From: Pleurocapsaceae cyanobacterium CSU_1_1
GTDB lineage: Bacteria; Cyanobacteriota; Cyanobacteriia; Cyanobacteriales; Xenococcaceae
DNA length: 37,281 nucleotides
Assembly: GCA_012034765.1 (NCBI GenBank)
Contig: JAAUOU010000041.1
Span: forward strand, 1 to 37,281
Direction of reading: 5' to 3'
Numbering within the stretch: the stretch's first letter is position 1; each line of letters starts with the position of its first letter. Positions 18,795-32,009 of the stretch are shown here, piece by piece. Under the pieces are notes generated by a model, which had not been told where the DNA came from, did not search any database, and was given only the letters and a program-made list of their open reading frames with translations. The translations under genes and the position numbers were made by a program.

Positions 18795-19244
18795 ATAGGT
18801 ATTATTTTAAATCAGTTAATATGAGATCTAAAATTAATTTTTGCTTGTATATTGACAAATGCTTAAACCATTAAAAACTAAAAGTCAATTTTAAATTAAT
18901 GAAATAATTTACTTAAGTGTAAGAAATAAAAAAAATTTCAATATTTTCAATCATTATCTCATCGTAATAATCGTAAGCAATGATTATTTGAAAGTTACCT
19001 TGCTCTTGACATAATTAAATTTAAACGCTTAACAGCTTAAGTAAATATTTAAAACATTAATCAATTAAATGGTCACAGCCAATTATTACGATTAAATTGG
19101 AGATAATTTAGCTCTCAAATTGATTTATAAAATGGCGATCGCCAAAATTAAATTTTTGTAATCATAAGTAATTAAAAAAATCATGATTGTATTTGACCAA
19201 GAATAGATAAAATAAGGCTTGTGCCAAGAGTGAAAAGGTTATCT
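18795..19244. promoter_or_regulatory. AT-rich divergent intergenic region upstream of purL
   Basis: About 430 bases without a gene. A TTGACA at 19013-19018 followed after 17 bases by TTAACA is a candidate purL promoter on the + strand. GGCGATCGCC (HIP1 core) lies at about 19134-19143. AAAAGG at 19233-19238 is a ribosome site six bases before the ATG at 19245. No hairpin resembling a purine riboswitch aptamer was recognised. Confidence 0.35.
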
Positions 19245-22200
19245 ATGTCTGCCATGTCTGAGATTGGGTCTGCCCCCTTTAGTGCTGAAGAAATCGCCTC
19301 AGAAGGTATCAAGCCAGAGGAATATCAAGAAATTGTCAATCGTTTGGGTCGCCATCCTAATAAAGCCGAGTTAGGTATGTTTGGGGTCATGTGGTCAGAA
19401 CACTGCTGTTATAAGAACTCTCGACCTCTTTTAAGCCAGTTTCCCACTACAGGAGAAAGAGTCTTAGTCGGGCCAGGAGAAAATGCTGGGGTCGTAGATT
19501 TAGGTAACGGTCTACAACTAGCATTTAAAATTGAATCCCATAACCATCCTTCGGCAGTTGAACCGTTTCAGGGGGCAGCTACAGGAGTGGGGGGCATTCT
19601 GCGGGATATTTTTACGATGGGTGCGCGTCCCATTGCCATTCTTAATTCTTTGCGGTTCGGTAATTTAGAAGATGCCAGAACTAGGCGTATATTTCAAGGA
19701 GTAGTTGAAGGCATCTCACACTATGGTAATTGCTTAATTGCCAGTGAAACTTTCATCTGGAGGGATAACCAAGGTATTCACTTTGATACTATTGGCAACT
19801 TTGTGGAATCTCTCATGCCCAAAAATCAGGATACCTATGAGTTATCTAAATTTCAACAGGTAGAAACTCTTTCTTATAATTCTGAAACTCAAAAAAGTTG
19901 TTGGCAACCTGTCAAAAGAATTTTTAAACGCACTACCCAACAATTAATTAAAATTCGTACTTCTTTAGGACGTACTTTAACAGTAACACCCGATCATCCT
20001 GTATTAACTCTAGAACATGGCGATCGCATTATTAAACCAGCAGCTAAACTAGAAGAAGGTGATTATCTACCTCTACTTTTGGATTTTCCAGACAACGAGC
20101 AGTCAATAGTAAACATAGACTTGTTAGCTATATTAGGAGAAGCACATCAGGATGTTTATGTCGATCTACCCTCAAACTGGCAGCCGAATCCTGAAATTAA
20201 AGCTGCATTGAGGCAAATTGAACCTTCTACTCTTAAACGTCATCGTTATTGGCAAAAAGGATATCTGCCTCTGGCTCATTTCTTTAAACTAGAATCACTG
20301 CTAGATATTTCTCGTCAAGACCTCAGACTATATAGGCGCAGTGGTAAAGCTAATTATCCTCGTGCAGTTATCTCGGTCAACGATTTATTTGCCCGTTTAA
20401 TTGGGTACTATCTCTCAGAAGGTTGTATATCTCAAAATGCCAATACCTACAAAATTATCTTTACTTTTGCTCATCACGAATCAGAATATGTCAATGATGT
20501 CATAGCAGGATTAAAAAGTCTGGGACTACGCCCCTGCATAGAAAAAAGAACCTCCACTATAATTGTTTATGCTACTTCCTGGTTATGGGGATATCTGTTA
20601 AAAGAAGTTTGGCAATGTGGTTATTTGGCTACTAATAAATCAATGCCAGCTTTTGTCTTTCAATTATCCAGTCAATTACAAAAGGAAGTACTAAAAGGTT
20701 TATTCCGAGGGGATGGCTCGTTAACCACTAAAACCAATGGTAATCACGCTAAAATCACCTTTGCTACCACTAGTAAAAAACTATTCGAGCAGACTTTAGT
20801 ACTACTTCAAAATCAAGCGATCGTTCCCTATATTTATTGTCAACCATCTAAAAAAGGAACAATTGAAGGACGCGACTATATTAGTTCACCTCTTTGGCAA
20901 CTAGAAATTAATAACTATGATAGTTTAACAATACTTGCGGATGTTTTTAGTCAGGAACGTAATCAACAGTTAGCGATCGCTTTAGCTAAATATAACGGCA
21001 ATAAACATTCTTTTCCGCGATATTTTATTACTGATAAACTAGCTTTCGTCAAAATTAAGAATATAGAACTAGAAGCTGTTACCGACACTTCAGTATATGA
21101 CGTAGAAGTGGATAATACTCACTTATTCGCTACTACTTCAGGTATTGTTACTCATAATTGCATTGGCGTACCAACGGTAGCAGGAGAAATTTACTTTGAT
21201 CGCGCTTATTCTGGTAATCCCCTAGTCAACGCAATGGCATTGGGACTCATGGAAACCGATGAGATTGTTAAATCTGGGGCAGCGGGTATCGGCAACCCCG
21301 TACTGTATGTCGGTTCAACCACTGGCAGAGACGGTATGGGGGGCGCAAGTTTTGCTAGTTCAGAGTTAACCGATGATTCCATGGATGATCGCCCTGCGGT
21401 GCAGGTAGGAGATCCCTTTTTGGAAAAATCTTTAGTAGAGGCTTGTTTAGAAGCTTTTAAGACTGGTGCAGTAGTCGCAGCACAGGATATGGGGGCAGCG
21501 GGATTAACCTGTTCTACCTCCGAGATGGCGGACAAGGGTGGCGTGGGTATTGAACTAGATTTGGACTTAATCCCCGCCAGAGAACCAGGGATGACTCCCT
21601 ATGAGTATCTTCTCTCAGAGTCCCAAGAAAGAATGCTGTTTGTGGCAACTAAGGGTAGAGAACAAGAATTAATTGATATTTTCCACAAGTGGGAACTTCA
21701 GGCAGTGGTTGCGGGTTCGGTAATTGAAGAACCAGTGGTTAGAATTTTATATCAGGGAGAAATAGCAGCAGAAGTTACCGCTACTGCCTTAGCGGATGAT
21801 ACTCCTATTTATCACAGGGAATTGTTAACCGAACCCCCCGCTTATGCGAAAGAAGCTGCTCAATGGACGGCAGATAATTTACCTGGCTGCGATTATCAAG
21901 GGATAGACGTTCAGGGAACTTACAAAACCTGGAATGAGATTTTGCTTCAGCTATTAGATACCCCCACTATTGCCTCGAAGCAATGGGTATATCGTCAATA
22001 TGACCATCAAGTACAAAATAATACAATTCTCCTGCCTGGTGGGGCAGATGCAGCGGTAATTAGAGTTCGTCCTATCGATGCCAAACCCGAAGACTGTAAT
22101 ATTGGTGTAGCATCAACTACCGACTGTAACCCCCGCTATGTCTACCTCGATCCTTATGAGGGTGCAAAAGCAGCCGTCGCCGAAGCAGCACGTAATCTTA

Positions 22201-23003
22201 GCTGTGTTGGGGCAGAACCCTTGGCAGTTACGGATAATCTCAACTTTGGTAGTCCTGAAAAACCCGTAGGCTACTGGCAACTAGCTAACGCTTGTAAGGG
22301 GATAGCCGATGCTTGTCGGGAACTATCCACCCCTGTAACGGGAGGAAATGTTTCTCTATATAACGAAACTTTAGATTCAGCGGGTAATCCTCAACCGATT
22401 TACCCCACTCCCGTAATTGGCATGGTGGGTTTAATTCCTGACATCACTAAAATCTGCGGACAGTCTTGGACTAAAGAAGGGGATGTTATTTATCTCTTGG
22501 GTAACTCTAATTACGTTCTCGGTGGATCTGAATATTTAGCAGCAGTTCACGGTACGGTGGCAGGAAAACCGCCCATAGTTGATTTTGATCTCGAAAAAAG
22601 TGTTCAGGCTGCTTGTCGCTATGGTATTCGTCAGGGATGGATTCAGTCGGCTCATGACTTAGCAGAGGGGGGATTAGCGGTTACTTTAGCCGAAGCCTGT
22701 ATTGGTAATAGTTGGGGGGCAACAGTAAATATCCCTGTATCTGAGTTTCAACGTCTAGATGAAATTTTGTTTGGTGAAACAGCTAGTCAGATCGTGGTAT
22801 CAGCGAGTCCAGATTTAATGGATACTTGGGAAACTTATCTAAATAACAATTTAGCTGACTGTTGGAGGAAAATAGGTGTAGTGGGTTCACCTCAATCGGC
22901 ACTAAAGATTTTAACAAATGATAATCTATCGTTAATTAATGTTAAGATCGCAGAGGTAACGATCGCTTGGTCACAGGCTATAGAAAAAAGACTAAATTCT
23001 TGA
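19245..23003 (+). CDS. purL: Phosphoribosylformylglycinamidine synthase PurL, interrupted by an intein
   Basis: Glutamine-dependent FGAM synthase subunit, fourth step of purine synthesis. The precursor has 1252 residues from ATG 19245 ([16 protein letters not shown]), chosen for the AAAAGG six bases upstream; GTG 19221 is an alternative. Removing the 476-residue intein leaves about 776 residues, normal for the small PurL type. Extein signatures: [15 protein letters not shown] with the catalytic His, [61 protein letters not shown] and [12 protein letters not shown]. The extein junction reads [14 protein letters not shown], a highly conserved PurL loop. purF follows in the same direction. purQ and purS are not in the window. 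No second purL copy is here, so splicing should be required for purine autotrophy. Confidence 0.97.
19731..21158 (+). mobile_element. LAGLIDADG homing-endonuclease intein in PurL
   Basis: A 476-residue in-frame insertion beginning with Cys (CLIASETFI, block A) and ending SGIVTHN, followed by extein Cys (+1). Splicing features: block [13 protein letters not shown] (TxxH), block [17 protein letters not shown], block G with His-Asn then Cys, that is, a class 1 Cys/His-Asn/Cys intein. The endonuclease domain has two dodecapeptides: [14 protein letters not shown] (intein residues about 221-234) and [12 protein letters not shown] (about 321-332), each with its acidic catalytic residue, so homing activity may be retained. 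Codon use and HIP1 content (GCGATCGC at about 20022 and 20973) match the host, implying long residence or transfer among cyanobacteria. Boundaries are set by the conserved PurL sequence on both sides. Confidence 0.95.
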
Positions 23004-23169: not shown

Positions 23170-24666
23170 ATGATGCCACAACAATCTTTCGATTGGATAG
23201 AAGATTCTGATTCTTTAATGGATGTTCAGCGGGCTGATAAGCCAGAAGAAGCCTGTGGTGTATTTGGGGTATATGCCCCTGAAACAACTTTTGATGTAGC
23301 CAAGCTCACCTATTTTGGTCTTTATGCTCTACAACACCGAGGACAAGAATCAGCAGGAATCGCTACTTTAAATAAAGGCGATCTTTATTGTCACAAAGAC
23401 ATGGGATTGGTTTCTCAAGTATTTAATGAAGAAATATTAGGACAGCTACCTGGAGAAATTGCGGTTGGTCATACACGCTATTCTACTACTGGCTCTAGTT
23501 TAAAAGAAAATGCTCAACCTGTAGTATTAGATACTAGACTAGGGAAACTAGCTTTAGCCCATAATGGTAATTTAGTCAATGCTGTAGAACTGCGTCAGCA
23601 TTTAATTCAGCGAGAAGCTAATTTTATTAGCTCCACCGATTCCGAAATGATTGCTTTAACGATCGCCGATGAAGTTAATCAGGGTAAAAACTGGATTCAA
23701 GGAGCAGTAAGTGCCTTTAAAATGTGTGAAGGGGCTTATAGTTTAGCGATCGCAACTCCTGATGGCTTAATGGGTGCGCGCGATCGCAACGGTATTCGTC
23801 CTTTGGTAATTGGTGTACTGTCAACAGAAGATGGAAACCAGCGCTATGTCTTATCCTCAGAAACCTGTGGTTTAGATATCATTGGGGCAGAATATGTCCG
23901 TGACGTACAGCCAGGCGAATTAGTTTGGATCACTGATTCAGGGGTTGCATCGGTAATTTGGACAAAAGAAGCAGATAAAAAGCTCTGTATCTTTGAAATG
24001 ATCTACTTTGCTCGTCCTGACAGTGTGATGCACGATGAGACTTTGTATAGCTACCGTATTCGTCTTGGTAGACAACTAGCTAGAGAATCCTTTGTAGATG
24101 CCGATTTAGTAATTGGAGTTCCCGATTCGGGTATTCCTGCGGCGATCGGTTTTTCTCGTGAATCAGGGCTTGCTTATGGTGAAGGGTTGATAAAAAATCG
24201 CTATGTCGGGCGTACCTTTATTCAACCTACCCAAAGTATGCGAGAAGCGGGGATTCGCATGAAGCTTAATACCCTCAAAGATGCTTTGCAGGGTAAAAGA
24301 ATTATCATTGTTGATGATTCGATCGTGCGTGGCACAACCAGCAAAAAAATTGTTCAAACCTTAAGAGATGCTGGGGCAACGGAAGTACACATGCGCATTT
24401 CTTCTCCCCCCGTAACTCATCCCTGTTTTTATGGTATCGATACCGATAACCAAGATCAGCTAATCGCTGCGACCAAATCTGTAAAAGAGATTGAAGCAAG
24501 AATTGGGGTTGATACCTTGGCATATTTATCTTGGGAGGGGATGCTTGAAGCAACTCAGGAAAACACCCATAATTTCTGTTCAGCTTGTTTTACTGGCGAC
24601 TATCCCGTTAATATCCCCGAAGATGTCAAGCGCTCTAAATTGATGTTAGAAAAAATCAAGGTTTAG
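23170..24666 (+). CDS. purF: Amidophosphoribosyltransferase
   Basis: Commits PRPP to purine synthesis: PRPP + glutamine to phosphoribosylamine. The 498-residue protein carries a ~28-residue propeptide before the N-terminal nucleophile Cys29 (EEACGVFGVY), the glutaminase elements LQHRGQESAGI, VGHTRYSTTG and AHNGNLVN, and the phosphoribosyltransferase PRPP loop IIIVDDSIVRGTT. Cysteines near the C-terminus (NFCSACFTGDYP), together with the propeptide, suggest the Bacillus-like class with a 4Fe-4S cluster. Start ATG at 23170; ATG 23173 is equally possible, with GTAGGAG at about 23151-23157 as ribosome site. It lies 167 bases downstream of purL. Confidence 0.96.
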   Translation: MMPQQSFDWIEDSDSLMDVQRADKPEEACGVFGVYAPETTFDVAKLTYFGLYALQHRGQESAGIATLNKGDLYCHKDMGLVSQVFNEEILGQLPGEIAVGHTRYSTTGSSLKENAQPVVLDTRLGKLALAHNGNLVNAVELRQHLIQREANFISSTDSEMIALTIADEVNQGKNWIQGAVSAFKMCEGAYSLAIATPDGLMGARDRNGIRPLVIGVLSTEDGNQRYVLSSETCGLDIIGAEYVRDVQPGELVWITDSGVASVIWTKEADKKLCIFEMIYFARPDSVMHDETLYSYRIRLGRQLARESFVDADLVIGVPDSGIPAAIGFSRESGLAYGEGLIKNRYVGRTFIQPTQSMREAGIRMKLNTLKDALQGKRIIIVDDSIVRGTTSKKIVQTLRDAGATEVHMRISSPPVTHPCFYGIDTDNQDQLIAATKSVKEIEARIGVDTLAYLSWEGMLEATQENTHNFCSACFTGDYPVNIPEDVKRSKLMLEKIKV

Positions 24667-25869: not shown

Positions 25870-27720
25870 TTACTCCCAACCGAACTCCATACCTAAATAT
25901 TTTTCCAACTGTCTATTATAAGGAGCAAAGTATTTGACTAAAATCTCTCTAAGAGCCGGATCTGCGTCTTGATAAGAACCAGAATTAACTTTAGGATAAT
26001 TATTTAATAGACAGCCAGGTAGATCGAGAAACTTAAATACCTGTTCCATATTTGCCCCAGGATTCAGATAAAAATCTTCACTTTTGAGAATTAAGAATTG
26101 TTCGCGTCCTAAAATTTCCATCCAGGGTTTGAGTTTATAGATATAAAGACTACTCATAATATTGTCTGGATTATAGTAGCCTGTGTTGGTAATCTCTGCT
26201 TCAGAGACGGTAGCTAATCGATCAATTTCAGTCGCGATCGCCGTTGCCAAATCTAGCTTAGTCAAGCCTGTATTCAGCTTATGATAATGCCAAGATATTG
26301 CTCGATCTACGGGATTTCTGAGTAATATAATAATTTTGATCTGGGGAAAAGTATCCTTAATTCTTTGTGCCACTTCAGGAAAGCGGAGATAATTAGGGGT
26401 GGCTTCTCCTGTCCGAAAATCAGGGCGATCGCTAATAGTCGGGAAATGAGCTAAATACCAATCAATACCTCGTTCATAATGTTGCCAATAGAAATCAAGC
26501 TCTTTCTTGTGAGAAAGTAATACTTGAGGATGGCGACTAAGGTAATGGTAAATTGAGGAAGTTCCGCATTTAGCTGCTCCTGCAATAATAAAGTCGGGTC
26601 CAGATTTTTTTTGACTTGGCCAGTCCAATTTTGCCAGATCGGGATAGGCTTGAATTGCCTGTTGATAACTGCCAGTACGGTAACAGTCTACCGCTTCCTC
26701 CACTCGATCTTGTTGAGTCAAAGCATCCCCTAGATTTCCCCAGGCAACACTAATTTCTGGATGCTTGCTAACTATCTGGCGATAAACCTTAATTACCTCA
26801 GAAAATTGTTCCTCAGCGATGGGAGTATATTGCAGATCTATATAGGTACTCTTGAAAAAAGGATCGAGTTGAATTGATTCAAGATAAGCTGTAATCGCCT
26901 CTGGGAAAGAACCTTGAGCGCGCAAAAGTTTACCAAGCTGAAAATACAACTCAACAGTAGCAGGGAGATCTTCAGCTAAAGTCGATTCCTCACCACTAAC
27001 AGCAAATGCTGCTAAAAGATCTTCTTTACCCAGGTAATTGATTGCCTGACGCAAACAAGCGATCGCTAAATCAAATTGCTGAAGGTGTCGATAAATCGCT
27101 CCCATCTTGACCAAAGCAAGAACAAACTCAGGATTAATTGAAATTGCTTGCTGATAGGCTGAAATTGCCTGTTGCCATTGCCGTTGATTTTGCCGAAGCT
27201 TTCCTAGCTGATAGTAGGGGAGAGCATAGTTTTCCTTGAGAGCGATCGCCTGTTGCCAACAGGATTCCGCTGCAACATATTCTTTAAGGGCAAAATTAGT
27301 CAATCCCCAATGATAGTAGACTCTAGCACTTTGCTCTAGTTCTGCTGCCTGTTGAAAATTATTGCTGGCTCGCAACCATTTCTTTTGAGCGGCTAAAGCC
27401 GATGCGAGAGCAAAAAGATAGTTAGAGTTTTGGGGATTATTTTTAACTCCCTGACGATAGACTTTAATCGCCTGCTCATCTTTACCCTCTTGCAACAGCA
27501 GATCTGCCAAAGTTTTATATACCGACTCAAAATCAGGCTGAAGCGCAATTGCCTGTCGGTAATGCTTAATTGCTAATTGCCATCGTTGTTGTTGAGCATA
27601 TAAATCTCCCAAATCCGCTTGTAATTGGGCAGATTGGGGATTAACCGCTATTTGTTGAATACACTCGGCGATCGCCTGGTCAATGGCAACTGGATCTAAT
27701 CTAGACAAAGAACTTTTCAC
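25870..27720 (-). CDS. TPR-repeat sulfotransferase
   Basis: A 616-residue two-part protein. Residues about 10-365 consist of tandem TPR motifs (for example LGDLYAQQQRWQLAIKHYRQAIALQPDF). Residues about 375-616 form a PAPS-dependent sulfotransferase: the 5'-phosphosulfate loop FIIAGAAKCGTSSIYHYLSRHP (about 378-398) and the 3'-phosphate loop IIILLRNPVDRAISWHYH (about 455-472). The enzyme would transfer sulfate from PAPS to hydroxyls of a glycan or protein, with the TPR region presumably docking the substrate or partner. No signal peptide, so cytoplasmic. It is the last of three TPR-fused enzymes in the same orientation; a heptamer repeat separates it from the methyltransferase. Substrate unknown. 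Confidence 0.9.
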   Translation of the reverse strand: MKSSLSRLDPVAIDQAIAECIQQIAVNPQSAQLQADLGDLYAQQQRWQLAIKHYRQAIALQPDFESVYKTLADLLLQEGKDEQAIKVYRQGVKNNPQNSNYLFALASALAAQKKWLRASNNFQQAAELEQSARVYYHWGLTNFALKEYVAAESCWQQAIALKENYALPYYQLGKLRQNQRQWQQAISAYQQAISINPEFVLALVKMGAIYRHLQQFDLAIACLRQAINYLGKEDLLAAFAVSGEESTLAEDLPATVELYFQLGKLLRAQGSFPEAITAYLESIQLDPFFKSTYIDLQYTPIAEEQFSEVIKVYRQIVSKHPEISVAWGNLGDALTQQDRVEEAVDCYRTGSYQQAIQAYPDLAKLDWPSQKKSGPDFIIAGAAKCGTSSIYHYLSRHPQVLLSHKKELDFYWQHYERGIDWYLAHFPTISDRPDFRTGEATPNYLRFPEVAQRIKDTFPQIKIIILLRNPVDRAISWHYHKLNTGLTKLDLATAIATEIDRLATVSEAEITNTGYYNPDNIMSSLYIYKLKPWMEILGREQFLILKSEDFYLNPGANMEQVFKFLDLPGCLLNNYPKVNSGSYQDADPALREILVKYFAPYNRQLEKYLGMEFGWE

Positions 27721-27745
27721 TGATTAATTATATTAATTACTAATT

Positions 27746-27800
27746 ACTGCTCACTGCTCACTGTTCACTGTTCATTGTTCATTGCTCATTGCTCATTGCT
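27746..27800. repeat. TGARCAR heptamer tandem repeat
   Basis: About eight units (on the - strand TGAGCAA, TGAACAA, TGAACAG, TGAGCAG). The TGA stop of the TPR methyltransferase (27793-27795) is the first units' TGA. It forms nearly the whole spacer between two genes of the cluster. Confidence 0.85.
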
Positions 27801-29253
27801 TGCGAATAATTAATTGGAAAGTAGCAGGAGATAAATGAACTACTTGCCACTGATCTTTAACAGAAGCCAAAAAGCGATCGGTACCTGTTTGGGGATCTTG
27901 TTGGGGATCTTGAGGATTACGCCAACCATAGTAACCAAATATCAGAAATCCTCCTGATTTAAGCAGTTTCCAAGCTAGTTGAGCATTAATTTCGCTGTGT
28001 TCAATCAATTTACATCGATCCTGAAGATGAATTAAATCAAACCTATTAGGGGTACATTCTGCCATTTGCTGGTGAGTATCACCCAGGCACAAGCTTACTT
28101 TGGATTCTGCACCAGTTTTAATGATGTTTTCTTTAAATTTGCCTGCAAACTGGCTATCAATACAGGTAAGATGGCTTGCTTGGTGAGTTAACAACTGATC
28201 TACCAGCCAACAGCTAGACATTCCCTGATAACAGCCTACTTCTAGAGCATTGATCGGTTGTTCTGAAAAAGATTTAAGCAGTTCTGACCATACAGGAATA
28301 CGATGACTAAAAATATCTGTCGAAAAAAAATAGTCATGGGAGACACATTGATCCCAACCGCGTTGTTCACAGGCTTTTTGAAAGTTGGCAGCAGCGTCAG
28401 CTAATTTGCCTTTTGCCCGCAGAGCATTACCTAATTGACTATATACCCACGGATATTCCTCCACCAGATTAATAATGGCATAGCAGGTAGAAATTGCTTC
28501 ATCCCACTTCTCAGTCAGCAAAAAGATTTTAACCAAGTCGCGATATGCCCAGGGAAAATCAGGATCGTATTTAATCGTTAGACGCAAACAGGCGATCGCT
28601 TGTGCAAATACACCTTGCTGAAGATAAATCGTACCTAATTTATACTGTGCCTTAGCTGCTGTTGGTTCAACCTCTAACAGTCGCCGATAGACAGCCTGTG
28701 CTAGCTCTAATTTGCCCTGCCGTTGGTAAATTTCTCCTAGATCGAAAAATGCAGCTACGATGCCCTGACTCCCCATCGTTGCCTGTTCATAACAGGCGAT
28801 CGCTTCCGTGATTTTGCCTTTCTTTTCTAAGGCTTTGGCTAATTTATAATATCCTTGTTGGTTAACTAAGTTGGGGTTAATCTGAATTGCTTGATACCAG
28901 CATTCCATTTCTGCATCTCTACGCTGGAGTTGACCATTGATCTGAGCCAAAGCAGAGTAGATTCGCGCGCAATTAGGAAAGTACTCTAGTGCATGTTCAA
29001 ATGAACTTAGGGCAGCGATTAAATCGTTTTCCAATAAATGTAGTTCTCCCAGTTGAGAATATGTTTCTGCCAAATTAAGAGTGTGATCTAATGCTAGAGA
29101 ATGCCAGATAATAGCTCGGTCAAATTCGGCTCTTCCTTGAAGTAGATTACCTAAATTATTAAAAGCAGCCTGCCACTGTTCAGGATTATCGGCGCTAGTT
29201 GTAATAGCCTGTTCGCACTGAGTAATAGCCTGAGCTAAATAGGTAGAATTCAC
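27793..29253 (-). CDS. TPR-repeat class I SAM-dependent methyltransferase
   Basis: A 486-residue protein with about eight TPR units in residues 1-300 (FNNLGNLLQGRAEFDRAIIWHSLAL, LGEIYQRQGKLELAQAVYRRLLEVEP and others). A Rossmann methyltransferase domain follows from about 325: motif I NALEVGCYQGMSSCWL, an acidic HLTCIDSQF after strand 2, FDLIHLQDR at strand 4, and LAWKLLKSGGFLIFGYYGW. The class I fold is clear, the acceptor is not. Together with its TPR-sulfotransferase and TPR-GT61 neighbours on the same strand (about 60-70 base gaps), a role in modifying a sugar or surface molecule is inferred. The stop codon lies in the heptamer repeat. Confidence 0.88.
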   Translation of the reverse strand: MNSTYLAQAITQCEQAITTSADNPEQWQAAFNNLGNLLQGRAEFDRAIIWHSLALDHTLNLAETYSQLGELHLLENDLIAALSSFEHALEYFPNCARIYSALAQINGQLQRRDAEMECWYQAIQINPNLVNQQGYYKLAKALEKKGKITEAIACYEQATMGSQGIVAAFFDLGEIYQRQGKLELAQAVYRRLLEVEPTAAKAQYKLGTIYLQQGVFAQAIACLRLTIKYDPDFPWAYRDLVKIFLLTEKWDEAISTCYAIINLVEEYPWVYSQLGNALRAKGKLADAAANFQKACEQRGWDQCVSHDYFFSTDIFSHRIPVWSELLKSFSEQPINALEVGCYQGMSSCWLVDQLLTHQASHLTCIDSQFAGKFKENIIKTGAESKVSLCLGDTHQQMAECTPNRFDLIHLQDRCKLIEHSEINAQLAWKLLKSGGFLIFGYYGWRNPQDPQQDPQTGTDRFLASVKDQWQVVHLSPATFQLIIRKQ

Positions 29254-29311
29254 GAATTTAATTGATAAAAATTGATGAATGAATGATCAAATCAAAAACT
29301 AATTTTAGTTT

Positions 29312-31285
29312 TTAGTTTTGTTGCTGACAATGCTGTAAAACCAATTTGAGCGCATCAATACTAACAAAAATATCTTCAGTTAGCGCGTTTTGGTACATTA
29401 AATTACGTAGAGATGAACAGCTAAAGTTTTTTCCCACTATGTAATAGTGCTGTAAGTCTAGCTGTTGGCTAATCATCCAGTAGTCTGTTCTGATGTAGTT
29501 AGGAGAAAAAAGCTCAACCACTTGAGTATTAGGAGAACAAAAAACTAGGTTAGTTAGCCCCGAACCATGGGGAGAGACAATCATCTTGGCATTAGCAAAT
29601 ATCTCTACCTGCTCTAAAAAAGACATTTCCTCCAGAAACACCGTCACAAAACCTGATTTAACCAGTAACTGGCTAATCTCTACCTCGTTAACCAACTGCC
29701 TATTTTTAGCCTTAGCTCGACTAACATAGATTTTAGAACGATCATTCTGGCTGTGATTAATTTGAGGCAAAAAGGTTTGTCTGAGAAATCTAATTGTTCC
29801 TTCGGGAACCCAGTCTAAATAACCAGGGAAAGAAGGTACAATTAGCTCGCTAGCTTGAATATGACTGTGGCGATCGCTTTCAATAATTTTATCTTGGGCA
29901 ATCCCCAGCAGTTTTAAAGTTTCTTGCTGATAAGATTTGCTCAAACTATTGACCACAAACCAATCAATCTCTTTAAATTTGATCTCACTGCGTCTTAATA
30001 GTTCTAATCTCGGCAAAATATCAAACATCCAATGGTAGTAAACATGACCTGCTAAACCAGATAATAAAGCCACTTTACCTGTAATTGTTTCGATTGGTGC
30101 AATGTTGTCCTGCTCATAAATTTTATGTTCGACTCTTTCTTGATAAGGGCATCCAGGCAAAAACCAGGGATAGTCTCTCGATAAATCTCCCAACAGATAG
30201 TTATCTGGTGTCATAACTGCCATGGCAGAACAAATTACCCAAGAGTTTTTCTGTGGTGCTACCCAAGCTCTACCATTGGGAATCGTCACCACAAAAGGTA
30301 ATTCCGTCTCAATTGTAGGAGCTTGCTTGAGGGAACATTTATAGGCATTTTGACCGATCTGAAGTGGTTTAAACTGAGCGATCAGCTTGGTCATACAATT
30401 GTTGCAGTTGACTCCCCCACAATCTGGGTAGGATGTATGACCAGGGGTGATTTGAATGGATTCAGGTTGTCTGACTATTTTGGTTTTTTTGAGGCTGTCT
30501 GCTGATTGTGACCACAACACCTGCACATAGTCAAAATCCTGTAAATTACTGTCTCGCACCCAGTCTTGAGTGTGGTGATAAATTTGAGTCGGTAATGATG
30601 CTAGATTGTCTTCTGTGGGAAATAATTTGGGTAGCTGTTTCCAGTCAGTTTCTTGGTTGTGATCGTTTAAAACCTTTTCATAGTAATCAATCGCTTGTTC
30701 TGCCTGCTGAGTTTTTTCCAATAGCTTACCAAGCTGAAAACAAATCTGAGGTTGATTCGGTTGAACCGCCAAACCTTGATGGTAGATAGTCACGGCAGCA
30801 TCTAATCTTTGCTGGCGAGCTAGACAGTTTCCTAACTTAAGATATAGATCCAGATCTTGCGGTTGAAGCTGTAAAGCACGTTGATAATAAGTTTCCGCCT
30901 GCTTGATTCCGCCAAACTCAAATAAAACATCTCCCATATAACCATAGGTTCGCCAGAGATGATGATAAGCTTCCTCTTGTTGTCCTAGCTTTAATGCCTG
31001 AAGCAAGCGAGCGCAGGCTAATTTGGCTATTTCCAAGCGATCTTCGGGACTGCTGGCTAGTTTTCCCTGACAATAAGCATCAACAAACTCTGGTTCTAGC
31101 TCAATTATTTTTTGCCAGGATTTTAAAGTCGATGCTAGATCGCCCATTTTTTGCCGCACTTCGGCGTAATTACCGTGAGCCAAAACATTCTTGGGATCGA
31201 GCTGAAGCACATGATGAAAACATTGGGTGGCTTGAACATAGTTACCCTGTTGCTGCCAAAGACGACCAAGATTTTGATGTGCCAA
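29312..31285 (-). CDS. TPR-repeat glycosyltransferase family 61 protein, 3' part of a frameshifted gene
   Basis: Residues about 1-230 are TPR units (MAHQNLGRLWQQQGNYVQATQ and following). From about 320 the protein is a GT61 (DUF563) transferase: GRAWVAPQKNSWVICS, GHVYYHWMFDILPRLELL, KIYVSRAKAKNRQLVNE, and EQVEIFANAKMIVSPHGSGLTNLVFC. GT61 enzymes transfer GlcNAc, xylose or arabinose to glycans or proteins. The listed start is an internal TTG; in truth the TPR region continues upstream in two other frames to 32009 (see next entry). Restoring one base at about 31296 gives LDPNHGLAHQNLG, a normal TPR. The full gene would encode about 898 residues. The insert CGGVNCNNCM (four cysteines) between the TPR and GT61 parts may bind metal. 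Confidence 0.88.
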   Translation of the reverse strand: MAHQNLGRLWQQQGNYVQATQCFHHVLQLDPKNVLAHGNYAEVRQKMGDLASTLKSWQKIIELEPEFVDAYCQGKLASSPEDRLEIAKLACARLLQALKLGQQEEAYHHLWRTYGYMGDVLFEFGGIKQAETYYQRALQLQPQDLDLYLKLGNCLARQQRLDAAVTIYHQGLAVQPNQPQICFQLGKLLEKTQQAEQAIDYYEKVLNDHNQETDWKQLPKLFPTEDNLASLPTQIYHHTQDWVRDSNLQDFDYVQVLWSQSADSLKKTKIVRQPESIQITPGHTSYPDCGGVNCNNCMTKLIAQFKPLQIGQNAYKCSLKQAPTIETELPFVVTIPNGRAWVAPQKNSWVICSAMAVMTPDNYLLGDLSRDYPWFLPGCPYQERVEHKIYEQDNIAPIETITGKVALLSGLAGHVYYHWMFDILPRLELLRRSEIKFKEIDWFVVNSLSKSYQQETLKLLGIAQDKIIESDRHSHIQASELIVPSFPGYLDWVPEGTIRFLRQTFLPQINHSQNDRSKIYVSRAKAKNRQLVNEVEISQLLVKSGFVTVFLEEMSFLEQVEIFANAKMIVSPHGSGLTNLVFCSPNTQVVELFSPNYIRTDYWMISQQLDLQHYYIVGKNFSCSSLRNLMYQNALTEDIFVSIDALKLVLQHCQQQN

Positions 31286-32009
31286 ACCATGGTTGGGTCT
31301 AAAATAATTGCTGTTTCAAAACTAGTCAGTGCAAGTTCTGGTTGAGAATTAAACCAATACACCTGACCCAGGTTATTGTGTAAAGTAGCCCAAGTTGGAT
31401 CAAAAGCAATACCTTTTCTCAGGGTAGAGATTGCTTTAGTATACTCTTGTTGACGGGCGTAGGCACTCCCCAAATTACTATAGGCGCGAATTAAATCAGG
31501 CTGGATGATAATTGCCTGCTGATAGGCAGCGATCGCCTTTTCCAGTTCTCCTTTTTGATCGTAAAGTACGCCCAAATTGAAATATGCTGATTCATAGTCG
31601 GGCTTGATTTTAATCGTTTGATTATAGGCACGATCGCTTCTTGCCAATTGCCCATTTGATGCAGCACTACCGCTAAGTTGTACTGCAATTCTGCCCAATC
31701 AGGGTTTAACTTCAAAGCCTGTTTATAGTGCCATACTGCCTGTCGGGAATCTTGCTGCTTACTGTGGAGTAAACCTAATTCTGCATAAATTTCTGCCTGA
31801 TTAATTCTAGTACCAAGAGTTTTGCGGTAAGCACTAATAGCTAAAGCAATTTGACCCTGTTGAGCATAAGCTCTAGCAAGATAGGGATAGAAATCAACCC
31901 CATTGGGATCAGTGGCGATCTCCTGTTTACAGATATCAATAACCTGCTCCCATTCTCCTCGCCCTAAGTGAGATTTAATCTTTTTGAATGAGGATTCGCC
32001 TCTTATCAT
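31286..32009 (-). pseudogene. 5' TPR region of the GT61 gene, split by two single-base deletions
   Basis: From ATG 32009, frame A gives MIRGESSFKKIKSHLGRGE and TPR units up to HQMGNWQEAI. At about 31630 the sequence CACGATCGC, where CAGCGATCGC would restore the frame and a HIP1 octamer, shifts reading to frame B (YNQTIKIKPDYESAYFNLGVLYDQ, ending TAIILDP). At about 31296 a missing base in a C/G run shifts to frame C, the 3' gene. The three frames join into one continuous TPR array without gaps or lost repeat units. Both lesions are 1-base, so either the gene died recently or these are sequencing errors and the gene is whole. Confidence 0.8.

Follow-up and report, generated by a model that had tools for sequence, protein, structure and literature searches.

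The PurL protein encoded in the window, the 37,281-nucleotide stretch of Pleurocapsaceae cyanobacterium CSU_1_1 contig JAAUOU010000041.1 analyzed here, is interrupted by what is very probably a full-length intein of class-1 type that splices and belongs to a homing-capable family, with loss of the endonuclease elsewhere at the same site. The main interest of this intein is the comparative series found at one codon: within one bacterial order, empty, endonuclease-bearing, endonuclease-dead, and endonuclease-deleted forms of a single insertion site stand side by side, and endonuclease integrity accompanies signs of mobility.

The PurL open reading frame (ORF) (19,221–23,003, plus strand) begins with a GTG codon and encodes 1,260 aa. 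It contains only one insert, in frame and at exactly 19,731–21,158 (plus strand; 476 aa, 54.5 kDa). The N-extein (19,221–19,730, plus strand) ends in EGISHYGN, and the C-extein (21,159–23,003, plus strand) resumes at Cys+1 with [10 protein letters not shown], giving the junctions HYGN–C and HN–CIGVP. Both exteins were delimited by ORF translation and family match; the flanks match the equivalog NF002290 with 1033 bits (cut-off 648), and the G+C content of the insert is 36.1% versus 45.4% in the flanks. Pfam assigned the insert to Intein_splicing (PF14890, 1.4e-18, above cut-off) and LAGLIDADG_3 (PF14528, 8.7e-14), and NCBIfam to intein_Nterm (1.2e-11) and intein_Cterm (5.6e-5), with TIGR01445 and TIGR01443 exceeding their cut-offs; no PurL-specific intein model was among the NCBIfam matches listed for the insert. 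The insert also matched the PI-PkoII structure (PDB 2cw7, E 9.4e-16), and a profile search matched this structure across both domains of the intein (E 2.5e-21). AlphaFold2 run from two sequences gave a poor model (mean pLDDT 42.2).

An intein is defined by Cys, Ser, or Thr at position 1, a block B TxxH, a C-terminal His-Asn, and Cys, Ser, or Thr at position +1 of the extein. The insert has Cys1 within the block [14 protein letters not shown] (19,731–19,769, plus strand, as are all features of the insert), TPDH at residues 86–89 in block B (19,986–19,997), H464 and the terminal His475-Asn476 in blocks F and G (21,087–21,158), and Cys+1 in the extein. The endonuclease region comprises residues 156–378 (20,196–20,864), the span absent from the largest mini-intein, L070, and 202 of its 223 positions are absent from all three natural mini-inteins. 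Motifs and alignment placed in it the two dodecapeptides expected of a LAGLIDADG enzyme, each with its terminal acidic residue: block C (20,382–20,426) with YYLSEG and E230, and block E (20,685–20,729) with FRGDGS and D328. The block D lysine, K303 (20,637–20,639), was identified by alignment, and a further motif is block [12 protein letters not shown]. An earlier sequence-only reading had proposed a complete intein here, beginning with Cys, ending in His-Asn followed by Cys, with TPDH and block F motifs and acidic residues in both dodecapeptides, and had predicted a spliced PurL of ~84 kDa; each of these features was recovered, and the joined exteins compute to 784 aa and 84.2 kDa. The sequence supports an intein of class-1 type that is complete and whose LAGLIDADG endonuclease is apparently intact. 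Judged from sequence, that 19,731–21,158 is an intein is virtually certain, that it splices is highly likely, and that its endonuclease is active at present is reasonably probable.

PurL would be translated as a 1,260-aa precursor in which Cys1, aided by the block B Thr and His, would attack the Asn-Cys bond; the chain would then pass to Cys+1, and Asn476 would cyclize with His475, joining the exteins into the 784-aa PurL. These steps are those of the textbook class-1 pathway. The nested LAGLIDADG domain would be expected to cut intein-less purL, the target being the conserved codons for YGN–C(I/V)GVP, and the intein would be copied in as the cut gene is repaired. The genome containing the window (4.6 Mb, 196 contigs) matched PurL only as two halves of one gene. 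The earlier claim that the cell needs splicing to make purines holds, because the interrupted gene is the single PurL copy matched in an assembly that is 95.88% complete; no support was found for a regulatory link between purine synthesis and the intein. A purF-like gene, an ORF named by sequence reading, lies downstream of purL (23,170–24,666, plus strand), and the purL–purF order is identical in the empty relative G466 and in the occupied G507. Elsewhere in the window, sequence reading indicated a VanW-like fragment at the contig start (33–611) that is unlike the rest in style and possibly a broken gene, and a run of TPR-repeat genes on the minus strand (25,870–32,009) with sulfotransferase-like and glycosyltransferase-like ends and overlapping broken frames near 31,135–32,009. 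Outside the window, the same genome encodes a GyrB-like gene (G000:C192, L075) that reads as having an intein-like insert with an extra helix-turn-helix-like stretch, the frame being broken in the endonuclease part into frames of 904 aa and 312 aa that overlap by ~34 bases.

The draft state of the window's genome (196 contigs) leaves room in principle for the PurL insert to be a chimera or an artefact of assembly or binning. This is barely credible: the insert preserves the frame to the exact codon, and the site is occupied also in independently assembled genomes, several listed as one contig each (G338, G352, G391, and G513), and in the metagenome-assembled genome of Xenococcaceae cyanobacterium MO_167.B27 (contig JASJCP010000002.1), whose intein at this PurL codon is 75% identical. 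Intein matches were found in 9 of 386 genomes in a phylum sample (E <= 1e-20) and 39 of 388 in an order sample; one of the 39, G493, matches solely by an intein that lies in a different gene. Among the 388 order genomes, 369 gave a match to a site probe, a 134-residue PurL stretch that spans the insertion point. The site is occupied in 38 of these, 37 with split probe matches plus G446, whose contig ends inside the intein, and uninterrupted in 331, all with match E <= 5e-70, some assigned from coordinates and the remainder from E-value and match count. Of two PurL matches in the genome G651, one is read as a continuous frame. For G527 and G446, whose frames begin inside the intein, a naturally split PurL intein was considered and rejected, both frames lying at contig ends. 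In G099, G039, G401, and L028 the PurL match breaks near host residue 480, where extra residues occur, which looks like a lineage-specific insertion. Two single-contig genomes of 1.4–1.5 Mb that are rated 99% complete, G574 and G582, gave no PurL match at E <= 1e-8 and are possibly reduced genomes lacking purine synthesis.

By the taxonomic codes of the sample, occupied genomes are spread over 13 families and 21 genera, several of the latter including empty species too. Empty sites, which the sequence-only reading had proposed seeking in related cyanobacteria, exist even within the window's own genus, where all 12 of the other sampled species are empty. The closest relatives, G466 and G546, are both empty and have host residues 96.7% and 96.4% identical to those of the window; the host bases of G466 are 90.3% identical, and its purL neighborhood reads as alike. 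The occupied G507 belongs to the window's family. A quick host-gene tree of 85 rows requires at least 15 changes between occupied and empty states; its rows are 37 occupied alleles and 48 near and scattered empty ones. Rows left out of the comparisons are L012 (taken as the genome of L013), L031 and L069 (both at contig ends, L069 being that of G446), L060 (the second half of the window's gene), and L091 (an empty candidate).

In all 37 distinct complete alleles, including endonuclease-dead and mini alleles, Cys1, the Thr and His of block B, the His of block F, the terminal His-Asn, and Cys+1 are conserved. The residue that would become +1 was read directly at 48 empty sites and is Cys in 41, Ala in 5, and Ser in 2; the corresponding residue in PurL structures is Ala in 3viu and Ser in 2hs0. 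Ala supplies no nucleophile, and such a site could therefore not host a splicing intein of class 1. Within genus g146, L053, L054, and L057 are empty with Ala at +1, and the occupied relative L013 has Cys; because of the Ala, these three sites, as they stand, would be unable to host the PurL intein.

The endonuclease is more variable. Both acidic residues are kept in 25 of the 37 alleles, the window's included. L028 keeps its GD and is shortened just after it, and L030 has the first acid replaced by Lys and most of block E gone. In genus g175 both acids are absent from seven complete alleles and from the partly read G446 (YYIATG and RNNP). Three alleles, from three different families by the same taxonomic codes, are mini-inteins (L070, 261 aa; L073, 200 aa; L074, 217 aa), and their deletions look independent, because L073 and L074 each have same-genus species that bear the endonuclease. 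At 200–261 aa, the mini-inteins are candidate splicing tools. Because empty, mobile-looking, endonuclease-dead, and mini alleles coexist there, this one site displays much of the homing cycle, and with all forms in one gene, both the cycle and the persistence of dead endonuclease domains become testable with natural alleles.

Nei-Gojobori synonymous differences were compared in same-genus pairs between the intein and up to 160 + 480 host-gene codons. When both alleles had intact endonucleases, all 12 pairs, from genera g10, g176, g13, g181, and g34, differed less in the intein than in the host gene, and in codon bootstraps of eight of these pairs the share of replicates with intein difference equal to or above that of the host was 0 to 0.0225. 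The order was reversed in 21 of 21 dead/dead pairs, with bootstrap shares of 0.96 to 1.00 in the four pairs resampled; all 21 come from g175 and so amount to one independent case. L028, classed as dead for this comparison despite its GD, occurs in no same-genus pair. Among five intact/mini pairs the intein difference was higher in three, equal in one, and lower in one, and two mini pairs gave bootstrap shares of 0.58 and 0.90. One pair, L006–L008 (G103–G245), differs at 3 of 1446 intein bases. Its upstream flank has no difference in the first 105 bases and then 31 in the next 395, and its downstream flank has the first difference at base 6 and 29 in 500. At the upstream rate, the chance of 105 identical bases is ~2e-4, for a pair chosen after inspection. 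The pattern is what gene conversion with a short, one-sided co-converted flank would leave. An identical flank is absent from the other four of the five pairs mapped, where the first upstream difference lies 28 (L019–L021), 7 (L023–L025), 4 (L024–L027), and 22 (L007–L008) bases from the insert.

Low synonymous divergence of the endonuclease-bearing inteins might instead reflect unusual synonymous constraint or mutation rather than transfer, and the G+C content of the intein is indeed below that of the exteins in 12 of 12 alleles checked. We consider this very unlikely, given the reversal in all 21 pairs of endonuclease-dead alleles and the sharp ends of the L006–L008 tract, one of which falls within the host gene. 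A mobile family is supported by its patchy distribution, by empty sites in close sisters, and by inteins that resemble one another more than their host genes do. Recombination independent of the endonuclease could also spread the PurL intein, and the divergence data do not fix the breaking enzyme. Over 666 allele pairs intein identity tracks host identity (r = 0.82), so that much of the intein's history follows host relatedness and no long-distance transfer is proven. A candidate transfer between orders, L011 (G286) and L029 (G391), whose inteins are sisters (100/100) and unusually alike, was rejected: the host data are compatible with sister hosts, the joint tree being the better one (p-AU 0.657), with the order of G286 represented by one genome only.

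The endonuclease-dead alleles of g175 depart from simple decay. The homing-cycle model expects the endonuclease to decay after fixation (PMC8966425; PMC1654191). The PurL site is occupied in eight of eight readable g175 genomes, the ninth, G469, having a PurL fragment that lacks the site. Their endonuclease domain is full length, with YFVAAG-like and RNNP or RTNP motifs where YYLSEG and RGDG are expected. Endonuclease dN/dS is 0.03–0.10 in the 20 of 21 pairs for which it is computable (L033–L066 is saturated), near the value of the host enzyme, and in 20 of 20 pairs falls below the value for the rest of the intein (0.09–0.21), which is everything outside residues 156–378, linkers included. Bootstrapping of six pairs gave upper 95% limits of 0.058–0.140 for endonuclease dN/dS, and 144 of 227 endonuclease columns are invariant, as are 125 of 234 in the rest. 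Wider pairs are near synonymous saturation, and the close pairs L032–L033 and L032–L034 therefore carry the weight. A comparable order holds among intact alleles (mostly 0.06–0.14 for the endonuclease, versus 0.13–0.28 for the rest; the outlier, 2.23, is for L023–L025, with ~1% of synonymous sites differing), so that in g175 constraint did not relax, rather than rose. The g175 clade sits on a long branch of the intein tree (0.87), as if fast change had been followed by settling.

A need to stay in frame explains the lack of stops in the dead domain and not its low dN/dS. The strong purifying selection suggests that the domain helps splicing or has another role; our reading is that it would be retained for splicing or folding, a DNA-binding role being possible and pure conjecture. 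Endonuclease-domain deletion impaired splicing in several inteins, a relation termed mutualism, and the dead endonuclease domain of the Pyrococcus horikoshii (Pho) VMA intein could be removed with splicing retained (both from PMC8966425). We hold domestication as a tentative explanation, at somewhat less than even weight: the dead domain of g175 would have become a requirement for the splicing or folding of PurL, or would act as a DNA-binding regulator, with the domain deleted in other lineages at this site. If true, it would provide a natural test of the mutualism between intein and endonuclease.

The window's intein and its nearest relative share 75% identity. Two histories fit, one of gain after divergence from G466 and one of losses in its sisters; gain is favored because the 12 other species of the genus are empty. 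No donor was found among the sampled relatives, and counts of flank differences around the window's intein are flat, with no co-conversion tract. These two results, together with the similar extents to which intein and host gene differ from those of the nearest occupied relative (in the pair L001–L013, a synonymous difference of 0.65 for the intein versus 0.71 for the host, bootstrap share 0.09), are what would be seen if the intein splices with an endonuclease that is now inactive, having been inherited or gained independently of homing. That reading is unlikely, if well short of negligible: the allele keeps the block D lysine and the two acidic residues, the 12 of 12 empty species fit a recent gain, and endonuclease-region dN/dS between the window's allele and L013 is 0.08, a weak argument because dead domains elsewhere in the family are equally conserved. 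An endonuclease that is still active remains our preferred reading. No vehicle was identified: the intein's matches among phages, 11 records in total, share 21–31% identity with it, and a search of plasmids with the intein gave no match. Among viral contigs no relative was found with a single-sequence query, and an alignment query gave one 25% match (L108). Phage purL matches occur in 26 records, and the 20 listed all cross the intein site unbroken. Microcystis phage MaAM05 (MW495066.1, 243,207–243,638) has an annotated purL whose match spans the intein site in one piece.

The sequence-only reading had considered that the allele might be undescribed, and this stands for the open-access papers searched: among those listed, none was found by title to concern a PurL intein, intein registries and catalogues lying outside that search. 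As far as those papers show, PurL, a metabolic enzyme, is apparently not a described intein host. Two inteins have been counted in Nodularia, with hosts unnamed in the accessible portion of PMC3610870. The nearest inteins seen in another host, those of G493 (L071) and G461 (L072), are 36% identical over residues 42–476 and differ in lying in nucleotide-sugar-dehydrogenase-like genes, as read from their frames. Both are f17 genomes, and G461 carries a PurL intein as well as the one in its dehydrogenase-like gene.

The PurL intein resembles PI-PkoII (2cw7/2cw8) in having a HINT domain split around a LAGLIDADG domain in the same domain order, but occupies another host and site, and the sequence likeness is distant. 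The host gene of PI-PkoII is presumably an archaeal DNA polymerase. Among VMA inteins, the endonuclease of Pyrococcus horikoshii is dead and that of Thermococcus litoralis active, and g175 is like the former in having lost both catalytic acids while keeping the domain (PMC8966425). The VMA inteins differ in their archaeal VMA host and in the dispensability of the dead Pho domain, whereas the conservation in g175 was measured over seven genomes. Like the split DnaE inteins (PMC5874633), the PurL intein lies in an essential cyanobacterial gene. DnaE inteins are divided over two genes, unlike the PurL inteins read here, all of which are contiguous.
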